Source: Chryseobacterium cucumeris (lineage in GTDB: Bacteria > Bacteroidota > Bacteroidia > Flavobacteriales > Weeksellaceae). Taken from it: a DNA stretch of 64,000 nucleotides. Below, piece after piece: positions 14,194-49,435 of the stretch. Position 1 is the stretch's first letter; each line of letters starts with the position of its first letter. The position numbers and the translations under genes were made by a program. Under the pieces are notes generated by a model. That model did no database searches. It saw only the letters and a program-made list of their open reading frames with translations, and was not told where the DNA came from. The stretch lies in the NCBI RefSeq assembly GCF_016775705.1, contig NZ_CP068760.1:4588001-4652000 (forward strand), written 5' to 3'.

Positions 14194-14284
14194 AGTTGGA
14201 GTGTGGGAGGGTTTGAGGGTGAGAGAGCGTGAGAAGAGAGGGATTGGAGATTCGAGATTCGAGATGCGGGATACGGGGAGCGAA
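14194..14284. repeat. Purine-rich octamer array passing into a heptamer array
   Basis: From 14194 to 14249 seven octamer units, six of them ending GAG (e.g. AGTTGGAG, TGTGGGAG) stand in register. The spacing then changes to 7: ATTCGAG occurs twice in a row (14250-14263), followed by ATGCGGG and ATACGGG. The change of period inside one array with the same base pattern is notable. Confidence 0.8.
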
Positions 14285-14386
14285 GTGCAAGGATGAGTGG
14301 TTTCGGGATGATTGTAATATACTATATATAATAAAGGGATAAGTTAGGCGAAAGCTCGTTCCTATTGAATGGTTTTTATTTTTTAC

Positions 14387-14423
14387 CGCGGATGACACAG
14401 ATTGACACGGATCATGATGGATA
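14387..14423. repeat. Short GGAT repeat of 9-10 nt period
   Basis: Four successive units of 9-10 nt contain GGAT or AGAT (e.g. CACAGATTGA, CACGGATCA). Comparable CACGGAT/CACAGAT strings are scattered in intergenic DNA of many Bacteroidota, which is from general knowledge and not checked here. Confidence 0.5.
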
Positions 14424-14456
14424 TTTTATATATGAACTTGTTTTCATTGGGCCAAA

Positions 14457-14544
14457 TTATTACTTATTACTTATTACTTATTACTTATTACTTATTACTT
14501 ATTACTTATTACTTATTACTTATTACTTATTACTTATTACTTAT
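14457..14544. repeat. Perfect heptanucleotide VNTR (TTATTAC)12
   Basis: Twelve exact copies of TTATTAC (14457-14540) plus a partial TTAT. Because 7 is not a multiple of 3, every frame reads the same heptapeptide cycle, which creates the repetitive LLLITYY ORFs; these are not genes. It is the only perfectly regular array in the window and a good marker for strain typing. Confidence 0.97.
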
Positions 14545-14596
14545 ATCCTACCCTCCTTCCCTAGCCCTGATAGGAATGGTTACCCCACAGCATGGG

Positions 14597-14636
14597 TTGG
14601 AGAGTGGGTGGGACTGAGCGTGGGAGTGCGCTGGCG
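14597..14636. repeat. G-rich octamer array, left copy
   Basis: Five 8-nt units in register, e.g. TTGGAGAG and TGGGTGGG, with G at positions 4 and 8 in all units. The same TTGGAGAG unit starts the array at 14679. Confidence 0.6.
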
Positions 14637-14678
14637 CGAGGAGTATGAATGGATAGCAGGAAATAGCTCCTTATAAAA

Positions 14679-14734
14679 TTGGAGAGTTGGAGCGTTGGAG
14701 AGTAATAGAGTTTGAGAGTGGGAAAGTGAAGGAC
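14679..14734. repeat. G-rich octamer array, right copy (consensus TTGGAGAG)
   Basis: Seven consecutive 8-nt units: TTGGAGAG occurs at 14679 and 14695 with TTGGAGCG between them, followed by diverging units such as TTTGAGAG. It has the same orientation as the arrays at 14194 and 14597, so these are direct and not inverted copies. Confidence 0.85.
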
Positions 14735-29015: not shown

Positions 29016-31631
29016 ATGACCGCCGAAAAAGATAGATTACAAGATACCAAATGGAAAAACTGGGGACCTTATGTAAGCAACCGGCAGTGGGGAAATGTAC
29101 GCGAAGATTATAGCCCGAACGGGAATGCCTGGAATTTTACCAACCATAATAATGCAGAAAGCTATGCCTACCGTTGGGGTGAAGAAGGTATTGCCGGAAT
29201 TTCTGATGTAAAGCAGCTTTTATGTTTTGCTTTTTCGTTCTGGAACAAGAAAGACAAAATGGTAAAGGAACGATTCTTTGGTTTGAGCAATCCTCAGGGT
29301 AATCATGGGGAAGACATCAAAGAAATCTTTTATTATCTGGATAATACACCTACTCATAGTTATATGAAAATGGTTTATAAATATCCCATCAATGAATTTC
29401 CTTACGATGAACTTGTTGCAGAAAACGGAAGACGCAGTAAAAAGGAACCGGAATATGAAATTTTCGATACCGGAATTTTCGATAATGATGAATATTTTGA
29501 TATTTTCATTGAATATTGCAAGGCCGATCACAATGATATTCTTGCCAGAGTAACGGTCTGTAACCGAAGTCAGCATGAAGCACCTATTCTGGTAGCGCCT
29601 ACTGTATGGTTCAGAAACAACTGGAAATGGGGATACAACACCTATAAGGCAGAGCTTAATGCTTCTCATGACGGAAGTATCAATATTGGACACGACAGTA
29701 TCTCCATTAAAAAACTTTATTCCCGAAATACCAATGCACAAAGCGTATTTTGTGATAATGAAACCAATACTTCTAAGCTTTACGGAGCTCCTGCAGGTGA
29801 AAATACATATTTCAAAGATGGCATCAATCATTTTATTACCCACCAGGCAAATACGATTAATCCCGCAAAGAAAGGGACAAAAGCTTCTTTCCTGATCGAT
29901 GAGCTTATCGGAGCCGGAGAATCAAAGGTTTTTGATTTCAGATTATGTCCTGAGGAAAATGATAATCCTTTTGAAAACTTTGATGAAATTTTCAATACCC
30001 GGCAGGCTGAAGCTGAAGAGTTTTATCAGGAAATTCAGAATGATACCGTTAACGAAGATGAGAGAAATGTACAGAGACAGGCTTTTGCAGGACTTCTCTG
30101 GAATAAGCAGTTCTATCATTATAATATCGGAAAATGGCTGAAAGGTGATCCCAACTTTGAAGCCCCAAGAAATTTCAATGAATATGTAAGAAATACGGAA
30201 TGGAATCATCTCCATAATAAGGATATTATTTCTATGCCCGATAAATGGGAATATCCATGGTATGCCACATGGGATCTGGCGTTTCATTGTGTTCCTTTTT
30301 CCATCATTGATGCGGAATTTGCCAAGGGACAGCTTTTACTTCTTACTAAGGAATGGTACATGCATCCCAATGGACAGCTTCCTGCCTATGAGTGGAATAT
30401 GAGTGATGTGAATCCGCCGGTACACGCATGGTCTTGTTTCCGTGTTTTTAAAATTGATGAAAAAAATAACGGAAAACCGGATTTATTATTTTTAGAGAAA
30501 GTTTTCCAGAAACTGCTTCTTAATTTCACCTGGTGGGTGAACCGAAAGGATAAAAACGGAAAAAATATCTTTGGTGGAGGGTTTCTTGGTCTTGATAATA
30601 TCGGAGCTTTTGACCGGAATATGGAACTAAAGGACGGACAGCATCTTGAACAGGCAGACGGAACCAGCTGGATGGCCATGTATGCATTGAATATGATGCG
30701 TATTGCAATGGAGCTTGCCCAGTATTATCAGGTATATGAAGATATGGCCATCAAGTTTTTTGAACATTATCTTTATATCGCTGAGGCTATGGAAAATCTT
30801 GGTGAAGGCACAAAAGGGCTTTGGAATGAAGAAGACGGATTTTTCTATGATGTATTGCAGCTTGGAAACGGAGACAGTGTTTCTTTGAGGTTAAGAAGTA
30901 TTGTTGGTTTGATTCCTATGTTTGCTGTTGAAATTGTAGACCATCGCTTACTGGAAAAGATGCCGAATTTCAGGACCCGAATGGAGTGGATCTTAAAAAA
31001 TAAACCGGAGCTTACCAAACTCGTTTCCCATTGGGACGAGGAAGGACACGGACGAAAACACCTTATGAGCATACTTCGTAAAAACAGACTGACAAAAGTT
31101 CTGACCAGAATGCTTGATGAAAATGAGTTCCTGAGTTCTTACGGAATACGTGCTATGTCTAAGGTATACGAAGAAAATCCGTTTGTATTCTCTGTACATG
31201 GGTCTGAAAATATGGTATACTATACGCCTGCAGAAAGTGACAGCAGAATGTTTGGCGGAAATAGCAACTGGCGCGGCCCCATCTGGTTTCCTATCAATTT
31301 CCTGATTGTTGAAAGCCTGCAGCGCTTCCATTATTATTATGGAAACAGTCTGAAAGTAGAATTCCCAACGGGAAGCGGTGATAAAAGAAACCTGGATGAA
31401 GTAGCCCAGAATATCAGCAAAAGACTCTGCTCAATATTTTTAAAGGATGAACATGGCCAAAGGGCGTTCAACGGAGGCAATCCCAAGTTCAATTATGATG
31501 AACACTTCAGAGATTATATTACGTTCTTTGAATATTTCCATGGTGATAACGGCCGTGGTGTGGGTGCTTCCCATCAAACAGGATGGACTGCTACTGTAGC
31601 GAAACTGATAAAGCCAAGACTCACCTTTTAA
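29016..31631 (+). CDS. GH63/MGH1-type glucosidase
   Basis: 871 residues. The start (DTKWKNWGPYVSNRQWGNVR) and the (alpha/alpha)6 barrel signatures KWEYPWYATWDLAFHCVPF, NPPVHAWSCFRVF, GGGFLGLDNIGAFDRN and GNSNWRGPIWFPINFLIVE match the GH63-related glucosidases of the MGH1 clade. It releases glucose or mannosyl-glycerate-type units by inversion. No signal peptide is present, so it acts in the cytoplasm, probably on an internal oligosaccharide. It is divergent from the met operon, and a shared terminator with osmC follows. Confidence 0.92.
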   Translation: MTAEKDRLQDTKWKNWGPYVSNRQWGNVREDYSPNGNAWNFTNHNNAESYAYRWGEEGIAGISDVKQLLCFAFSFWNKKDKMVKERFFGLSNPQGNHGEDIKEIFYYLDNTPTHSYMKMVYKYPINEFPYDELVAENGRRSKKEPEYEIFDTGIFDNDEYFDIFIEYCKADHNDILARVTVCNRSQHEAPILVAPTVWFRNNWKWGYNTYKAELNASHDGSINIGHDSISIKKLYSRNTNAQSVFCDNETNTSKLYGAPAGENTYFKDGINHFITHQANTINPAKKGTKASFLIDELIGAGESKVFDFRLCPEENDNPFENFDEIFNTRQAEAEEFYQEIQNDTVNEDERNVQRQAFAGLLWNKQFYHYNIGKWLKGDPNFEAPRNFNEYVRNTEWNHLHNKDIISMPDKWEYPWYATWDLAFHCVPFSIIDAEFAKGQLLLLTKEWYMHPNGQLPAYEWNMSDVNPPVHAWSCFRVFKIDEKNNGKPDLLFLEKVFQKLLLNFTWWVNRKDKNGKNIFGGGFLGLDNIGAFDRNMELKDGQHLEQADGTSWMAMYALNMMRIAMELAQYYQVYEDMAIKFFEHYLYIAEAMENLGEGTKGLWNEEDGFFYDVLQLGNGDSVSLRLRSIVGLIPMFAVEIVDHRLLEKMPNFRTRMEWILKNKPELTKLVSHWDEEGHGRKHLMSILRKNRLTKVLTRMLDENEFLSSYGIRAMSKVYEENPFVFSVHGSENMVYYTPAESDSRMFGGNSNWRGPIWFPINFLIVESLQRFHYYYGNSLKVEFPTGSGDKRNLDEVAQNISKRLCSIFLKDEHGQRAFNGGNPKFNYDEHFRDYITFFEYFHGDNGRGVGASHQTGWTATVAKLIKPRLTF

Positions 31632-31666
31632 TAAGCAATGAGTAATTGGTAATGAGTAATAATAAA
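31632..31666. repeat. Heptamer array directly after the glucosidase stop (TNAGTAA)
   Basis: The array begins on the base after the stop codon: TAAGCAA, TGAGTAA and two or three more 7-nt units in register. It is the inverted counterpart of the array at 32128-32148. Confidence 0.75.
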
Positions 31667-31708: not shown

Positions 31709-32128
31709 TTAAATTTTTTCTCCGTTCACATAGACTTCGTATCCGATTTCTACATTCGGTTCTAACGTTTTTGATACAGAGCAGTATTTTTCAAAAGAAA
31801 GTTCTGCAGCCTTTAATGCTTTTTTAGGATCAATTTCTCCTTCCAGAAGGAATTTTACGTTAATCGATTTAAATGGTTTTGCATCTTCTACCTGTACTCT
31901 TTCTCCTTCTACCTCTGCCTGAAAGCTTCTGATCTCCTGACGCTGCTTCTTTAAAATAGAAACTACATCAATTCCGCTGCAGCCTGCCACAGCCATCAGT
32001 ACACTTTCCATTGGAGAAACTCCTTTAGCTCCCGGCTGGGAAGTATTATCCAAAAGAATAGAATTTCCCTGAGCATTGGTACATTCAAATAAAAAATCGT
32101 CGTTTATTCTGTTAAGTGTAATTTTCAT
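31709..32128 (-). CDS. OsmC family peroxiredoxin-like protein
   Basis: 139 residues. The OsmC fold is shown by the active-site segment PMESVLMAVAGCSGIDVVSI with the first cysteine, and by KAAELSFEKYCSVSKTLEPN with the second. OsmC proteins reduce organic peroxides. The gene is oriented opposite to the glucosidase and lies between two inverted heptamer arrays, the left one after the glucosidase stop and the right one directly adjoining its own start codon. Confidence 0.92.
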   Translation of the reverse strand: MKITLNRINDDFLFECTNAQGNSILLDNTSQPGAKGVSPMESVLMAVAGCSGIDVVSILKKQRQEIRSFQAEVEGERVQVEDAKPFKSINVKFLLEGEIDPKKALKAAELSFEKYCSVSKTLEPNVEIGYEVYVNGEKI

Positions 32129-32148
32129 TGCTTATTGCTTATTGCTTC
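32128..32148. repeat. Heptamer array adjoining the osmC start (TTGCTTA)
   Basis: Three units TTGCTTA, TTGCTTA, TTGCTTC, the first overlapping the osmC ATG by one base. Its reverse complement TAAGCAA equals the first unit of the array at 31632. It ends 7 nt from the DUF58 stop. Confidence 0.7.
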
Positions 32149-32155
32149 TACAAAG

Positions 32156-33478
32156 TTATAAAATTCCTCTCGCTTTTATCTCCAGATATTTATTGATAAC
32201 ATCGATATTCAAATTTTCAGGAAGTGTATAAACAGTATAAATTCCGTATTTACGGAGTTCCTGGATGATCAGTTTCTTTTCAAACTCAAATTTTTCAGCA
32301 ATGATCTCGTCATAAATTTCCTGCATACTTTCAGGATTTTTGTTGATCAGCGTCTGCAGTTCAGAATTTTTAAAGAATACTACTACCAGCAAATGGTTCT
32401 TAGCAATTCCCCTAAGATATTTCAGCTGCCGGTTTAGTCCGTCTAACGTCTCAAAATTGGTAAAAAGCAGAATTAAACTTCTTTGGTTGATGGAATATTT
32501 TACATCCTGATACAAACGGTTGAAATCACTTTCGAAGAAATCTGTTTTGATATTATAAAGAGCTTCAGAGATTTTCTTCAACTGTCCGGATTTATTATCG
32601 GCAGCAATTTTATTTTCAGCTTTCTTGGAAAAAGTCATCATTCCCGCTCTGTCTCCTTTTCTCAAAATAATATGAGACAGCGCCATGGTTGCATTGATGG
32701 AATAATCCAGCAAGCTTAATTCGTTGAAAGGCATTTTCATGGTTCGTCCTTTATCAATCAGCATAAAAATACGCTGTGATTTCTCATCCTGAAACTGATT
32801 AACCATTAAACGATTTGTTTTCGAAGTTGCTTTCCAGTTGATCGTTCTGATATCATCTCCTGGTACATATTCTTTGATCTGCTCAAATTCCATGGTATGT
32901 CCCAGCTTTCTGACTTTCTTGATTCCGCCTAATAAAAATTCACTCTGAATAGCCATCAGTTCATATTTTCTTAGATGAATAAAAGAGGGATAGGCAGGAA
33001 GCATAGCATCTTTCTGGAAAATAAATCTTTTTGAAATCAGTCCTATTGGTGATGATGCGTACACATTCAATCCTCCGAAATGATATTCTCCCCTTTCTTT
33101 AGGCTCTAATGTGTATTGAAAAAATGTATTTGCTCCGGAAGTGATCTGTTTTTTGATCAGAAAATCTCTTTTCTGAAACTGAAACGGGATTTCATCAATA
33201 ATTTTAGTGGCTATGGTAAAGTTGTAATTATTCTTGATGTCAATTTTTACAAAATTCTCATCTCCGTTAGACAGTTTTTCCGGCAGAATTCTTTGAACCT
33301 GCAATGCATTCTTTTGGTTGAAAAGCAACAGAAAATCTACCATTGCTGCCAAAAAACAAATCAGGAGTGCGATATGGGCTACCCACATCAGCACCGGAAA
33401 GAAAAATGCAAGGACATACAGAATCCCCACTCCGATGAGTGTAAAAAAGAAACGTGTATTGATGTATAAGTTTTTCAT
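32156..33478 (-). CDS. DUF58 domain-containing protein
   Basis: 440 residues. Two membrane helices at the N-terminus (TLIGVGILYVLAFFFPVLMW) precede the DUF58 region: YVPGDDIRTINWKATSKTNR is the hallmark (DxRxIxW), and the C-terminal part resembles a von Willebrand A fold (RIFMLIDKGRTM, then SLILLFTNFETL). It normally works with a MoxR AAA+ ATPase in assembly or metal insertion of envelope proteins. Here MoxR is the next gene upstream but is separated by an IVP element. Confidence 0.93.
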   Translation of the reverse strand: MKNLYINTRFFFTLIGVGILYVLAFFFPVLMWVAHIALLICFLAAMVDFLLLFNQKNALQVQRILPEKLSNGDENFVKIDIKNNYNFTIATKIIDEIPFQFQKRDFLIKKQITSGANTFFQYTLEPKERGEYHFGGLNVYASSPIGLISKRFIFQKDAMLPAYPSFIHLRKYELMAIQSEFLLGGIKKVRKLGHTMEFEQIKEYVPGDDIRTINWKATSKTNRLMVNQFQDEKSQRIFMLIDKGRTMKMPFNELSLLDYSINATMALSHIILRKGDRAGMMTFSKKAENKIAADNKSGQLKKISEALYNIKTDFFESDFNRLYQDVKYSINQRSLILLFTNFETLDGLNRQLKYLRGIAKNHLLVVVFFKNSELQTLINKNPESMQEIYDEIIAEKFEFEKKLIIQELRKYGIYTVYTLPENLNIDVINKYLEIKARGIL

Positions 33479-33482
33479 TGGT

Positions 33483-33531
33483 TAGGTGGCAGGTTGCAGA
33501 TTATAGGTTGCAGGTTACAGGTTTTGAGGAT
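33483..33531. repeat. Heptamer array, right-hand end of IVP element 1 (CAGGTTN)
   Basis: Seven consecutive 7-nt units: TAGGTGG, CAGGTTG and five more, six with AG[GA]T. It lies 5 nt upstream of the DUF58 start. In the direction of the IVP gene it reads (AACCTNN)n downstream. Confidence 0.9.
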
Positions 33532-33563
33532 TATGTGAACGCACCATAGGTCTTACAGTTGTA

Positions 33564-33914
33564 TTATTGTAATGAGTTAATGAGTCCGTTCAACATTTTG
33601 GATATTTCTATAATCTTTTCATTTAATTTTAAATGCTCATTTTCATTTAAAAATTTGAGATTTTTTGAAATAATTAATTGTGTTTCTACTTCCGCACAAC
33701 TGCCTCTTGATATTTTTAAAAATTGCGAGTAATCAGGTTTGCTTCTCCTGGAGTTTCCCTCTGCAATATTGGAGGGTATAGAAACAGCAGCCCTTCTGAT
33801 TTGTGATGTCAAGCCATAAATCTCATCCTTAGGAAAAGCTTCTGTAGTTCTGTAGATTTCAGTAACAAAATCAATAGATCTCTGCCAGACTAAAAGTTCT
33901 TTAAAATTTGCCAT
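33564..33914 (-). CDS. Four-helix-bundle protein (S23 intervening-sequence type), copy 1
   Basis: 116 residues of the 23S rRNA-IVP/S23 family, a four-helix bundle also used by Avd of diversity-generating retroelements. Signatures: ELLVWQRSIDFVTEIYRTT, YGLTSQIRRAAVSIPSNIAE, NSRRSKPDYSQFLKISRGSC. Though named for 23S rRNA insertions, most members are found, as here, far from rRNA genes and have no known job; the positive face (RR, KxR) suggests nucleic-acid binding. Copy 2 at 49438-49800 has the same motifs. The gene stands between inverted heptamer arrays inside the MoxR cluster. Confidence 0.92.
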   Translation of the reverse strand: MANFKELLVWQRSIDFVTEIYRTTEAFPKDEIYGLTSQIRRAAVSIPSNIAEGNSRRSKPDYSQFLKISRGSCAEVETQLIISKNLKFLNENEHLKLNEKIIEISKMLNGLINSLQ

Positions 33915-33943
33915 ACATAATAATTTTGTAAATATTTAAACAT

Positions 33944-33992
33944 TCACTCACAATCAACTGCTACCGGCTACCTACCATCTACTACCTATTGT
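33944..33992. repeat. Heptamer array, left-hand end of IVP element 1 (CNNCTAC)
   Basis: Seven units in register including CTGCTAC and CGGCTAC. It runs up to the base pair before the moxR stop codon. In the IVP direction it reads (NNTAGGT)-like, inverted relative to the array downstream of the gene. Confidence 0.85.
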
Positions 33993-33993
33993 T

Positions 33994-35025
33994 CTATCTC
34001 GGTATTTCTATTCCTTCTAAAATCTGACGGATAATTTCATCTGCGGTAAGACCTTCCATTTCTCTTTCCGGAGATACGATGACTCTGTGTCTTAATACGG
34101 CGTAGCTTGCTTCTTTAATATCTTCAGGAGTCACAAAGTCTCTACCTCTTAAAGCGGCAAATGACTTTGATGCCGTAAGAAGTGCCAATGAAGCTCGTGG
34201 TGAAGCTCCCAGATATAAGAATTGGTTTTCTCTGGTATTGATAATAATTTTAGCAATATATTCCATCAGCTGGCTTTCCACAATAATTTCTTTTACCAGA
34301 TGCTGGTAGTTTTTCAATTGTTCAGCTGTGATCACGCGGTTGATTCCTTCTGTTTTATCTTCTTTTTTGCTTTCGTGCTGATTTTTAATGATCGCAATTT
34401 CCTGCTCAAGATCAGGATATCCTACATTGATTTTGAATAAAAAACGGTCCAGCTGCGCTTCCGGAAGCCTGTACGTTCCTTCATGTTCAATAGGGTTTTG
34501 TGTAGCGATCACCAGGAAAGGTTCCTCAAGGGTATATCGTGTACCGTCCATCGTGATCTGCCTTTCTTCCATAACTTCAAATAATGCAGACTGCGTTTTT
34601 GCCGGCGATCTGTTGATCTCATCAATCAGGATGAAGTTGGAGAAGATAGGTCCTTTTTTGAATTCAAATTCTGAATTTTTCACATTAAATACGGAAGTCC
34701 CCAAAATATCGGAAGGCATCAGGTCCGGAGTAAACTGAATTCTGCTAAACCCTACGTCAATGGTTTTGGCTAATAATTTTGCCGTGATTGTTTTCGCTAC
34801 TCCCGGAACGCCTTCAATAAGTACGTGTCCGTTTGAAAGTAATGCAGCCAAAAGATGTTCAATCATTTTTTCCTGCCCTACAATTACTTTTCCGATCTCA
34901 GATTTTACTTTCTCTAAACTCGCACGAAGTTCAATCATATCAATTCTCGACTGAAACTGCTCTTCCTGTTTATTAAGATTGATAGCGTTTTGGTTTTCTA
35001 TATTCGGGTTATCAAAGTTTTCCAT
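33994..35025 (-). CDS. MoxR family AAA+ ATPase
   Basis: 343 residues. Walker A GVPGVAKT (72-79), Walker B FILIDEIN (131-138), sensor ATQNP, and the family segment RITMDG-like 'ERQITMDGTRYTLEEPFLVI' with the arginine finger region PEAQLDRFLFKI. MoxR ATPases cooperate with VWA/DUF58 proteins as chaperones, sometimes for cofactor insertion. It belongs to the plus- and minus-strand cluster with DUF58, DUF4350, DUF4129, SpoIIM-like and RDD proteins. The next gene upstream ends 113 bp away, with an octamer array in the gap. Confidence 0.95.
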   Translation of the reverse strand: MENFDNPNIENQNAINLNKQEEQFQSRIDMIELRASLEKVKSEIGKVIVGQEKMIEHLLAALLSNGHVLIEGVPGVAKTITAKLLAKTIDVGFSRIQFTPDLMPSDILGTSVFNVKNSEFEFKKGPIFSNFILIDEINRSPAKTQSALFEVMEERQITMDGTRYTLEEPFLVIATQNPIEHEGTYRLPEAQLDRFLFKINVGYPDLEQEIAIIKNQHESKKEDKTEGINRVITAEQLKNYQHLVKEIIVESQLMEYIAKIIINTRENQFLYLGASPRASLALLTASKSFAALRGRDFVTPEDIKEASYAVLRHRVIVSPEREMEGLTADEIIRQILEGIEIPR

Positions 35026-47694: not shown

Positions 47695-49407
47695 ATGAGT
47701 CAAAAATGGATTTACAAGCCTGAACCCGATGAGGAAGTTGTGGACAGACTAAGTTCGTCACTTGGTTTTGGTACTTTTGAATCTAAAATCCTCGTTCTTA
47801 GGGGAATTGACAATTATCAAAAGGCCAGAGAATTCTTCAAACCGAACCTTAACGATATCCACAACCCTTTTTTAATGGCAGATATGCAAAAAGCTGTAGA
47901 GCGTATTGCTACCGCCATTGAAAACGGTGAAAAAATATTGGTATATGGTGACTATGATGTGGACGGAACCACAGCGGTTGCTTTAATGTACCTGTATCTC
48001 AGCAAAATTGTTGAGAAAAAATATTTAGATTATTATATCCCGGACAGAAATTCTGAAGGATATGGAATTTCCACGGAAGGAATTGATTTCGCCAAAGAAA
48101 ATGGTTTCTCATTAATCATTGCTCTAGACTGTGGAATCAAGGCACTTGATATGATCAACTATGCCAGCAATCTGGGTATAGATTTTATTATCTGCGATCA
48201 TCACCTTCCGGGTGAAGAGATTCCAAACGCTGCAGCTGTTCTTGATCCTAAAAGAAGTGACTGCCGATATCCTTTCAAAGAACTTTCCGGATGCGGTGTT
48301 GGCTTTAAGCTTTGCCAGGGACTGAATACGATTTATAAATTACCGGAGGCAGAATTATTTGAACTTACAGATCTTCTCGCCATTTCCATTGCAGCAGATA
48401 TTGTTTCGATGACGGGAGAAAACAGGGTCTTGGCTAAAATGGGATTAAAAACCCTGAGGAAAACCAGAAATCTTGGTTTAAGGTTATTGATTCCTGAGGA
48501 CAAACTTTCTCATTTCGAAATTTCCAATATCGTTTTTGAAATAGCTCCCAAAATTAATGCTGCCGGAAGAATTTCTCATGGTAAAGCAGCTGTAGAGCTT
48601 ATGGTTTCCGACAATCTGAAACATGCCAACCAGATTGTGAATGATATCATGAACCTCAACGATGAAAGGCGTGAACTGGATATGAATTCCACTCTTTCCG
48701 CTCTGAATCAGATTATAGAATCCCAGCAGGAAACCAAGCATACTACTATCGTTTATCATCCTGAATGGAATAAAGGCGTTATCGGTATTGTAGCCTCAAG
48801 GCTTATTGAAACCTATTATAAACCCACACTAGTTTTTACCGATGGTAATAACGGAGAAATGGTAGCTTCTGCAAGGTCTGTTTCTGATTTCGATGTACAT
48901 GAAGCTCTTGATATGTGCTCTGAATATTTCCTTAAATTTGGAGGTCATCATGCTGCTGCCGGACTTTCGATGGAAAAAGATAAGTTTGATGCCTTCAAGG
49001 AAAAATTTGAAAGAATTGTTTCTGAAAAAATCCAGGAGCACCAAAAGGAACCTTCTATTACGATTGATACGGAAATAAGAATTGACGAAATCAACAGAGA
49101 GTTTATCAATTTCCACAGAAAACTGGCGCCATTCGGGCCTCATAATATGAAGCCTATTTTTACATTAACCAATCAGAAGCTTTCCGGATATGTAAAAACC
49201 ATGGGGAAAGATAATAATCACCTGAAGTTTTATATCAAGCAGGAATCTACGGGACGAAATATTGAATGTGTCGGATTCAAACTGGGACAGTTTGCTGAAG
49301 ATTTTAAAAATAAAAATTTCGACCTTGCTTTTACCCTGGAAGAGAATCACTGGAAAGGCAATGTCACTCATTATCTTAATATCAAGGATGTAAAATTCAG
49401 GGGTTAG
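47695..49407 (+). CDS. recJ: Single-stranded-DNA-specific exonuclease RecJ
   Basis: 570 residues from the ATG at 47695 (MSQKWIYKPEPDEEVVDRLS); the longer frame begins inside the M48 promoter region. DHH phosphoesterase motifs: KILVYGDYDVDGTTAVALMY, LDCGIKALD, ICDHHLPGE, ISIAADIVSM; then DHHA1 with VIGIVASRLIETYYKPT and GGHHAAAGLSM, and an OB fold at the end. It degrades ssDNA 5'-3' in recombination and mismatch repair. The stop codon is part of the first heptamer of the array at 49401. Confidence 0.96.
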   Translation: MSQKWIYKPEPDEEVVDRLSSSLGFGTFESKILVLRGIDNYQKAREFFKPNLNDIHNPFLMADMQKAVERIATAIENGEKILVYGDYDVDGTTAVALMYLYLSKIVEKKYLDYYIPDRNSEGYGISTEGIDFAKENGFSLIIALDCGIKALDMINYASNLGIDFIICDHHLPGEEIPNAAAVLDPKRSDCRYPFKELSGCGVGFKLCQGLNTIYKLPEAELFELTDLLAISIAADIVSMTGENRVLAKMGLKTLRKTRNLGLRLLIPEDKLSHFEISNIVFEIAPKINAAGRISHGKAAVELMVSDNLKHANQIVNDIMNLNDERRELDMNSTLSALNQIIESQQETKHTTIVYHPEWNKGVIGIVASRLIETYYKPTLVFTDGNNGEMVASARSVSDFDVHEALDMCSEYFLKFGGHHAAAGLSMEKDKFDAFKEKFERIVSEKIQEHQKEPSITIDTEIRIDEINREFINFHRKLAPFGPHNMKPIFTLTNQKLSGYVKTMGKDNNHLKFYIKQESTGRNIECVGFKLGQFAEDFKNKNFDLAFTLEENHWKGNVTHYLNIKDVKFRG

Positions 49408-49435
49408 GATTTAGCAATAAGGGAATAGGAGAATC
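49401..49435. repeat. Heptamer array, left end of IVP element 2 (NNNTAGG)
   Basis: Five units in register such as GGGTTAG, GATTTAG and GGAATAG, overlapping the recJ stop codon and running to 3 nt before the IVP start. The inverse pattern follows the gene at 49786. Confidence 0.8.

Follow-up and report, generated by a model that had tools for sequence, protein, structure and literature searches.

In REP/RAYT systems (REPtrons), one protein gene lies between inverted short repeats, and cognate copies of these repeats occur without the gene elsewhere in the genome. RAYT belongs to the HUH nucleases and is related to IS200/IS605; the REPs are palindromes. Avd of the diversity-generating retroelements is a pentamer and, to judge from weak profile matches below the cut-offs, a distant sequence relative of the S23 (four helix bundle) proteins. 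We know of no function of S23 genes outside rRNA. Within rRNA, S23 ORFs occur in the intervening sequences (IVSs) of the 23S genes of Coxiella, Leptospira and others, enclosed by terminal inverted repeats. The Coxiella IVS, as described in the consulted part of PMC4990558, has two to three tandem GACAGAT heptamers and a degenerate one upstream of the S23 ORF. Elsewhere, S23 genes are listed among strain-unique genes or within called phage regions (PMC8700078, PMC5524665; excerpts).

Heptameric simple sequence repeats form a separate literature. They include GGGAATC in Xanthomonas and GGGGA(C/T)T in Nostoc (PMC4692102), TAACTGA in Beggiatoaceae (PMC4679880) and the heptanucleotides of Calothrix, which are intergenic and tandem like the arrays described below. 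According to the excerpts of PMC4692102, such repeats are over-represented in many genomes without an explanation, and X. campestris has 70 convergent inverted heptamer pairs; the same species has a solved S23 protein (XCC0516, 2gsc), described as a toroidal homopentamer (PMC4990558, in part). Heptamer arrays are discussed as G-quadruplexes or regulator sites in the accessible portions of PMC4679880 and PMC4692102, where the term S23 has no match; 'four helix' has none in that of PMC4679880. In the open-licence literature searched, we found no paper linking dispersed heptamers to S23, although such a link may be in print elsewhere. The S23 family and the heptamers were each known before; what is new here is the link between them, the matched ends and the correspondence between protein and array.

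The window analysed here is a 64,000-nucleotide stretch of the Chryseobacterium cucumeris genome (G000). Its S23 locus, like the 23S rRNA IVSs, has an S23 ORF between terminal inverted repeats; unlike them, it lies between moxR and a DUF58 gene and not inside a 23S rRNA gene. The elements described here also differ from the IVSs in lying between ordinary genes, in having arrays at both ends, unit families that follow the protein and no RNA-stem wobble signature, and in that similar arrays lacking S23 are dispersed through the genome. The flanking repeats recur without the gene elsewhere in the genome, as in REP/RAYT, whereas S23 matched no nuclease family and its repeats are tandem degenerate heptamers or octamers. 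In contrast to a diversity-generating retroelement, the reverse transcriptase profile RVT_1 is absent from 27 of the 59 genus genomes.

An S23 gene between inverted heptamer arrays

The S23 gene of the window (Table 1) has an intact reading frame. Its product matches PF05635 (E 2.8e-43), TIGR02436 (3.5e-42) and NF008911 (7.8e-46) and exceeds the curated cut-offs (146.9 bits against 33.8 for Pfam PF05635, 143 against 24 for TIGR02436), which confirms the assignment, made in an earlier sequence-only reading, of an S23/IVP gene between moxR and the DUF58 gene. The match to bAvd (PF22296, E 5e-8) is weak and under the cut-off, as is that to the DGR Avd model. Among the matches of the gene to Pfam and NCBIfam profiles there is no transposase or nuclease family; S23 is the sole gene between the arrays, and an HUH (Y1) transposase gene is absent there. 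The three genes are co-directional, and spacers of 85 and 79 nt flank S23.

Both spacers are periodic at lag 7 and align as inverted repeats, so that the central claim of the reading, inverted heptamer arrays enclosing the gene, stands. Its seven units on each side were an overcount (our count is six for the left side and about four for the right), and its two motifs, CAGGTTN and CNNCTAC, reduce to one unit family in opposite orientation on the two sides. The score of the left array at lag 7, 17, was equalled at any lag from 5 to 12 by none of 5000 dinucleotide shuffles, that of the right array, 10, by 65 of 5000, and that of the inverted alignment of the two spacers, 14.5, by 43 of 5000. The matching of the two arms is only moderately significant at the window locus alone; the case for it is carried by many other loci.

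Table 1. Features of the window, with positions counted from its first letter
Feature	Position	Strand	Basis or remark
S23 / 23S_rRNA_IVP / four helix bundle protein gene, 116 aa	33564..33914	-	profile matches
moxR-type AAA ATPase gene, upstream in operon	33994..35025	-	AAA_3 E 1.3e-63
DUF58 gene, downstream in operon	32156..33478	-	PF01882 E 7.5e-19
Array 3' of S23 gene	33484..33523	+	about six AGGTTGC-like units, read towards gene
Array 5' of S23 gene	33960..33988	-	about four AGGTAGC-like units, read towards gene
Second S23 gene, 120 aa	49438..49800	+	PF05635 E 2.3e-42
Array 5' of second S23 gene, AGGGGTTAGGATTTAG..., degenerate	49399..49431	+	by eye
Array 3' of second S23 gene, overlaps stop codon	49785..49822	-	by eye
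S23-less array AATGAGTAATTGGTAATGAGTAAT	31630..31660	+	lag-7 score 12
Partner of array 31630..31660, AAGCAATAAGCAATAAGCAAT on - strand	32127..32147	-	lag-7 score 14
Cluster of S23-less arrays, periods 7 and 8	14195..14728		three similar to L003 or L006 arrays of the same genome

Periods 7 and 8 at S23 genes in many phyla

The association of heptamer arrays with S23 genes is real and general. For the genus, we used 116 S23 loci (L001-L007, L009-L037 and L108-L187), a set of best matches and rows picked by hand that includes many orthologues. In their 150-bp flanks, scores of at least 9 at lag 7 occur in 86 upstream and 86 downstream, compared to 2.8 and 2.2 after shuffling. The sequence-only reading had described short-period, non-identical terminal arrays and had named beforehand the flanks of other S23 genes as the place where a missing lag-7 or lag-8 signal could refute it; the signal is present there. 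Lag 14 is found in 73 and 67 flanks and lag 8 in 6 and 9. Of the remaining lags, only lag 12 upstream (7 against 2.6) and lag 15 downstream (14 against 2.2) stand out from the background. Arrays on both sides, at lag 7 or 8, accompany 76 of the 116 S23 loci compared to 15 of 741 ordinary ORFs of G000.

S23 is present in 116 of the 148 Bacteroidota genomes sampled. The further locus samples are, like the genus set, none of them random. Outside the genus, a set of 89 loci from Bacteroidota (29 of them best per genome, 60 hand-picked from the matches listed) shows lag 7 in 51 and 41 flanks, lag 8 in 13 and 13, and other lags in 0-6, all counted without shuffles. From a scan of named genomes we took the best 80 of at least 588 S23 loci: among the 56 not named as Bacteroidota, 44 upstream and 37 downstream flanks show lag 7, 8 and 6 show lag 8, and 0-2 show other lags, again without shuffles, with inverted matching of at least 15 in 41 loci, and the 24 Bacteroidota-like ones have lag 7 in 16 and 16 and lag 8 in 7 and 4. 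Of 30 plasmid records that carry S23 we read ten, each of them cyanobacterial; with wider flanks, lag 7 is present upstream in 10 and downstream in 6 of these. A viral scan gave one S23 locus.

When 72 thinned representatives and 76 named loci were pooled, a period could be called in 130 of the 148 and not in the other 18. It is 7 in 106 and 8 in 24, and never 6, 9 or 10. Arrays are longer at period 8 than at period 7 (39 against 32 nt, p 0.012), while the number of units per array is similar (4.9 against 4.6, p 0.49). Both relatives with a solved structure, 2gsc and 2rld, have five chains.

Two simple descriptions of the arrays were discarded. A single universal unit motif fails, with only a weak AG anchor that barely exceeds the null. 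Because a repeat of period 7 or 8 shifts the reading frame from unit to unit, arrays could be all-frame stop cassettes; stop codons in all three frames do occur in 51% of 110 5' arrays, compared to 26% in dinucleotide shuffles, but about half of the 5' arrays lack them.

Two individual loci and one genome deserve mention. In a Pseudanabaena plasmid (L473), S23 and long near-exact heptamer arrays lie between genes annotated as cas6 and cas4. In an Endomicrobiales contig (L332), tRNA genes occur on both sides of S23. A Desulfobacteraceae genome (G213, with locus L353) has 25 S23 matches, many of them partial or with stops, which suggests a burst followed by decay.

Matched ends, fixed polarity and correspondence with the protein

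Units vary between loci, but each locus has matching units at its two ends. A strong array is present at both ends in 118 of 205 loci, and the best period agrees in 111 of these (98 with period 7, 13 with period 8). In the genus set, 84 of 116 loci have an inverted alignment of upstream with downstream flank that scores beyond the 99th percentile of shuffles; measured against cross-locus pairs, the alignment exceeds the 95th percentile in 67 and the 99th in 12 of the 116. Polarity is fixed, the G-rich strand pointing inward at both ends: read inward, upstream arrays of the genus set have more G than C in 81 of 90 cases and downstream arrays in 84 of 93, with the reverse in 4 and 2 and ties in the rest.

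In a tree of the S23 proteins (144 of 145 loci, one short gene having been dropped), in which many forks are unresolved, units and periods track clades across sites; the array types include AGGNNNN, AGANNNN and AGCNNNN, and one period-8 clade extends over three families. We quantified this correspondence in two ways. Among the 72 representatives, with pairs sharing a common neighbour excluded, the 47 cross-site pairs with a protein similarity of at least 0.55 have an array similarity of 16.9, compared to 12.3 under permutation (reached in 1 of 5000), and equal periods in 94% of the 31 called, compared to 69% (8 of 5000). When 76 of the 80 named loci were added (4 short-flanked ones omitted) and 91 pairs were dropped for flank homology, the 77 cross-site pairs at a similarity of at least 0.60 gave 18.1 against 12.2 (0 of 3000), with equal periods in 90% of 61 called against 70% (31 of 3000). 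At a similarity of at least 0.50 the agreement of periods is not significant (430 of 3000), and the correlation of protein with array over all pairs is weak (Spearman 0.095, null sd 0.047). The link is visible only among closer relatives.

Near-related S23 proteins at unrelated sites, even in other phyla, have similar arrays, and in this sense the arrays are cognate to the protein. For example, a Nitrospirae and a Cloacimonadota locus with a protein similarity of 0.77 have period-8 arrays that are alike. The suggestion of the sequence-only reading that the arrays are perhaps recognised by their own four-helix-bundle protein gains weight from these comparisons, in which array type follows S23 among closer relatives at unrelated sites.

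Turnover of S23 genes at gene junctions

We read 30 moxR-DUF58 junctions out of the 59 genus genomes. In 11, S23 occupies a gap of 436-515 nt (in one, G022, with an internal stop); another is shortened, two have remnants, one is a clean 4-nt gap, and 15 are without S23, many of these showing by eye arms that resemble arrays, of either the same or a different type. Junctions lacking the gene, which the earlier reading had proposed to seek in relatives, thus exist. S23 adjoins DUF58 also in G001, G017 and G058, which are among the most distant members of the genus (DUF58 identity 85%); the window copy therefore looks old and repeatedly lost, and not recently inserted. Most S23 copies of the genus are at orthologous sites and likewise look old.

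A comparable picture was obtained for the junctions of L007, L004, L115 and L113, where the sequence found in relatives is an array of another type, a remnant, a short spacer or an unrelated ORF. In a survey of five junctions by eye, no target duplication was identified, most S23-free sites carrying arrays, remnants, short spacers or ORFs. The proposal that the block enters at gene borders accordingly holds in part: S23 lies mostly at junctions of co-directional genes, and relatives have S23-free junctions, but the window copy itself looks old.

Arrays away from S23 genes

Three observations go beyond the earlier reading: the two periods, the spread over phyla and the occurrence of S23-less arrays genome-wide. 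In 864 kb of G000, 49 period-7 arrays have a score of at least 13, compared to 1 in one third-order Markov copy; the shuffles and this copy rule out a chance origin of the arrays. Since 43 of the 49 are away from S23, a confinement of arrays to S23 loci is also excluded. At a score of at least 12, the same 864 kb contain 57 S23-less arrays, 36 of which match arrays of the resident S23 genes at 15 or more, whereas only 8 do so after shuffling.

The density of period-7 arrays per 100 kb is 5.7 in G000 (864 kb), 0.4 in G045, a genome of the same genus without S23 (240 kb), and 0.0 in G191, a genome of the same order without S23 (160 kb), the latter two values coming from samples of only two genomes. 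On a broader scale, where ancestry and base composition are confounded with S23, a degenerate period-7 probe marked 40 of 116 S23-bearing compared to 2 of 32 S23-less Bacteroidota genomes (Fisher 0.0015); by the number of S23 matches per genome, the counts are 34 of 63 with at least five, 6 of 53 with one to four, and 2 of 32 with none. For the probe or its reversal, subject to the same confounding, the counts are 59 of 116 and 9 of 32 (0.028). The most matches to the reversed heptamer probe in this survey, 118 overlapping ones, were in G193, a member of Bacteroidota. In a small sample of 50-kb pieces, two Nostoc plasmids had 1 and 3 period-7 arrays and E. coli had none.

Inverted pairing is not a general property of nearby arrays in G000, where 117 pairs yielded 7 strong inverted and 5 strong direct matches. 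Thus, the inverted layout marks S23 loci and some S23-less pairs and not all arrays.

A model of the S23 unit and its alternatives

On balance, we lean towards the view that the block in the window is a copy of a widespread mobile unit of about 0.5 kb, in which S23 lies between inverted arrays and the ends are cognate to the protein. Under this model, the element would comprise the S23 gene with an inverted array on each side, each built of some five degenerate units that are mostly 7 and less often 8 nt long. An S23 pentamer would bind its own arrays as DNA, with about one subunit per unit, and the arrays would be the cognate recognition ends. Recognition at the level of DNA is favoured by a polarity that is symmetric about the gene and by the lack of an excess of G-U-tolerated mismatches, and the one-to-one stoichiometry is suggested by about five units per array and five chains in 2gsc and 2rld. 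Gene and ends would travel together between gene junctions and settle there; we infer such movement because distant hosts have similar units of gene plus arrays at sites that are unrelated. The unit would presumably be kept for as long as the host operon drives expression of S23, and its decay could leave S23-less arrays behind. The purifying selection on S23, detailed below, also counts in favour of this model.

A wider formulation, which we put forward tentatively and with somewhat less than even confidence, is that S23 genes define a class of mobile protein-repeat unit not recognised before and distributed over Bacteria, in which a pentameric, non-enzymatic S23 reads five-unit arrays by a lineage-specific code, moves or maintains these ends and is the source of the heptamer excess between genes, the rRNA IVSs being one habitat of such units. 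The data join two puzzles, the function of S23 and the excess of heptamers, and make both accessible to tests, with the arrays as candidate binding sites, S23 as their candidate binder and the lineage-specific units as a set suited to specificity swaps. Mobile units of protein plus repeat might also be where the unexplained seven-letter repeats in many bacterial genomes come from. Movement of DNA by S23 in the absence of a recognisable nuclease would be a new way of life for a mobile element; if S23 does not move DNA, the loci would represent a new protein-repeat regulatory system.

The latter possibility leads to the strongest alternative, which we consider unlikely but worth serious attention, namely that S23 is a stable, host-useful regulator of its operon, binding arrays in mRNA or DNA to tune expression or processing, with any movement ancient. 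S23 is under strong purifying selection: at eight of nine orthologous genus sites the median dN/dS lies in the range 0.06-0.13 (dS 0.6-1.1), the exception being site 2 (0.36), which mixes clades. Both neighbours have the direction of S23 in 187 of 205 loci compared to 340 of 737 ordinary G000 ORFs, although this sense placement is not universal, as both neighbours are co-directional in 6 and both opposite in 3 of the ten cyanobacterial plasmid loci. Selection and placement alike are what a regulator would lead one to expect, and the S23-less arrays of resident types could be its regulon. However, S23 is absent or decayed at many moxR-DUF58 junctions, and similar S23 genes with similar arrays at unrelated sites in different phyla better fit a moving unit. 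As a separate observation, in L137 (G017) S23 seemingly lies between two halves of a gene that we read as metH-like.

It is rather improbable that the block is an RNA-stem element in the manner of the 23S rRNA IVSs, with the arrays pairing in the transcript and RNase III excising S23 from the operon mRNA. The inverted arms round an S23 gene between co-directional genes are compatible with such a stem, and in the rRNA IVSs RNase III cuts the terminal inverted repeats that flank the S23 ORF (PMC4990558, consulted in part). In the 114 of 145 loci that align well, however, about 21% of the aligned columns are mismatched and there is no wobble excess (129 G-U-tolerated mismatches against 176 non-wobble transitions), and an Rfam search of 20 of the 80 named loci found no rRNA.

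The reverse order of events, in which ordinary repeats are born by slippage and S23 genes happen to insert into them, is already disfavoured, and we give it little credence. S23-free arrays at the same junctions in relatives would be expected under this scenario, and heptameric repeats are common in bacteria, with slippage proposed as their origin (PMC4679880 and PMC4692102, in the parts consulted). It is at odds with the fixed inward polarity, with the near absence of arrays from the samples of two S23-less relatives, and with array type and period that follow the S23 protein among closer relatives. Finally, a retroelement-like unit moved by reverse transcriptase, suggested by the kinship of S23 with Avd and by the weak sub-cut-off matches of the window protein to the bAvd and DGR Avd models, is very improbable given that RVT_1 occurs in only 32 of 59 genus genomes and S23 in 58 of 59; G000 has one RVT_1 match, not beside the window.

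Other features of the window and its genome

By profile search, G000 has seven S23 genes (eight rows, two of which are pieces of one broken gene). By eye, each has arrays on both sides, with a unit that differs per locus and is common to both ends; L002 on both sides and L006 upstream are under the array threshold. The second S23 gene of the window lies between what we take to be a recJ-like and a nadD-like gene. Its 5' array (score 7) is sub-threshold here and reaches at least 9 upstream in 7 of the 10 orthologous site-5 loci; its 3' array is sub-threshold here and in all 10.

The inverted pair of S23-less arrays next to DUF58 (Table 1) has a score of 13, where distant pairs have a 95th percentile of 12.5 and a 99th of 17. 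It surrounds an ORF (31709-32128) that is presumably OsmC-like, which means that genes besides S23 may also lie between matched arrays. Within the cluster of S23-less arrays, about twelve exact TTATTAC units fall inside an open frame of 103 aa (14365-14676). At 3172735-3172894 of the G000 chromosome, a 64-bp stretch with GATTGAC heptamers is present in two copies 96 bp apart.
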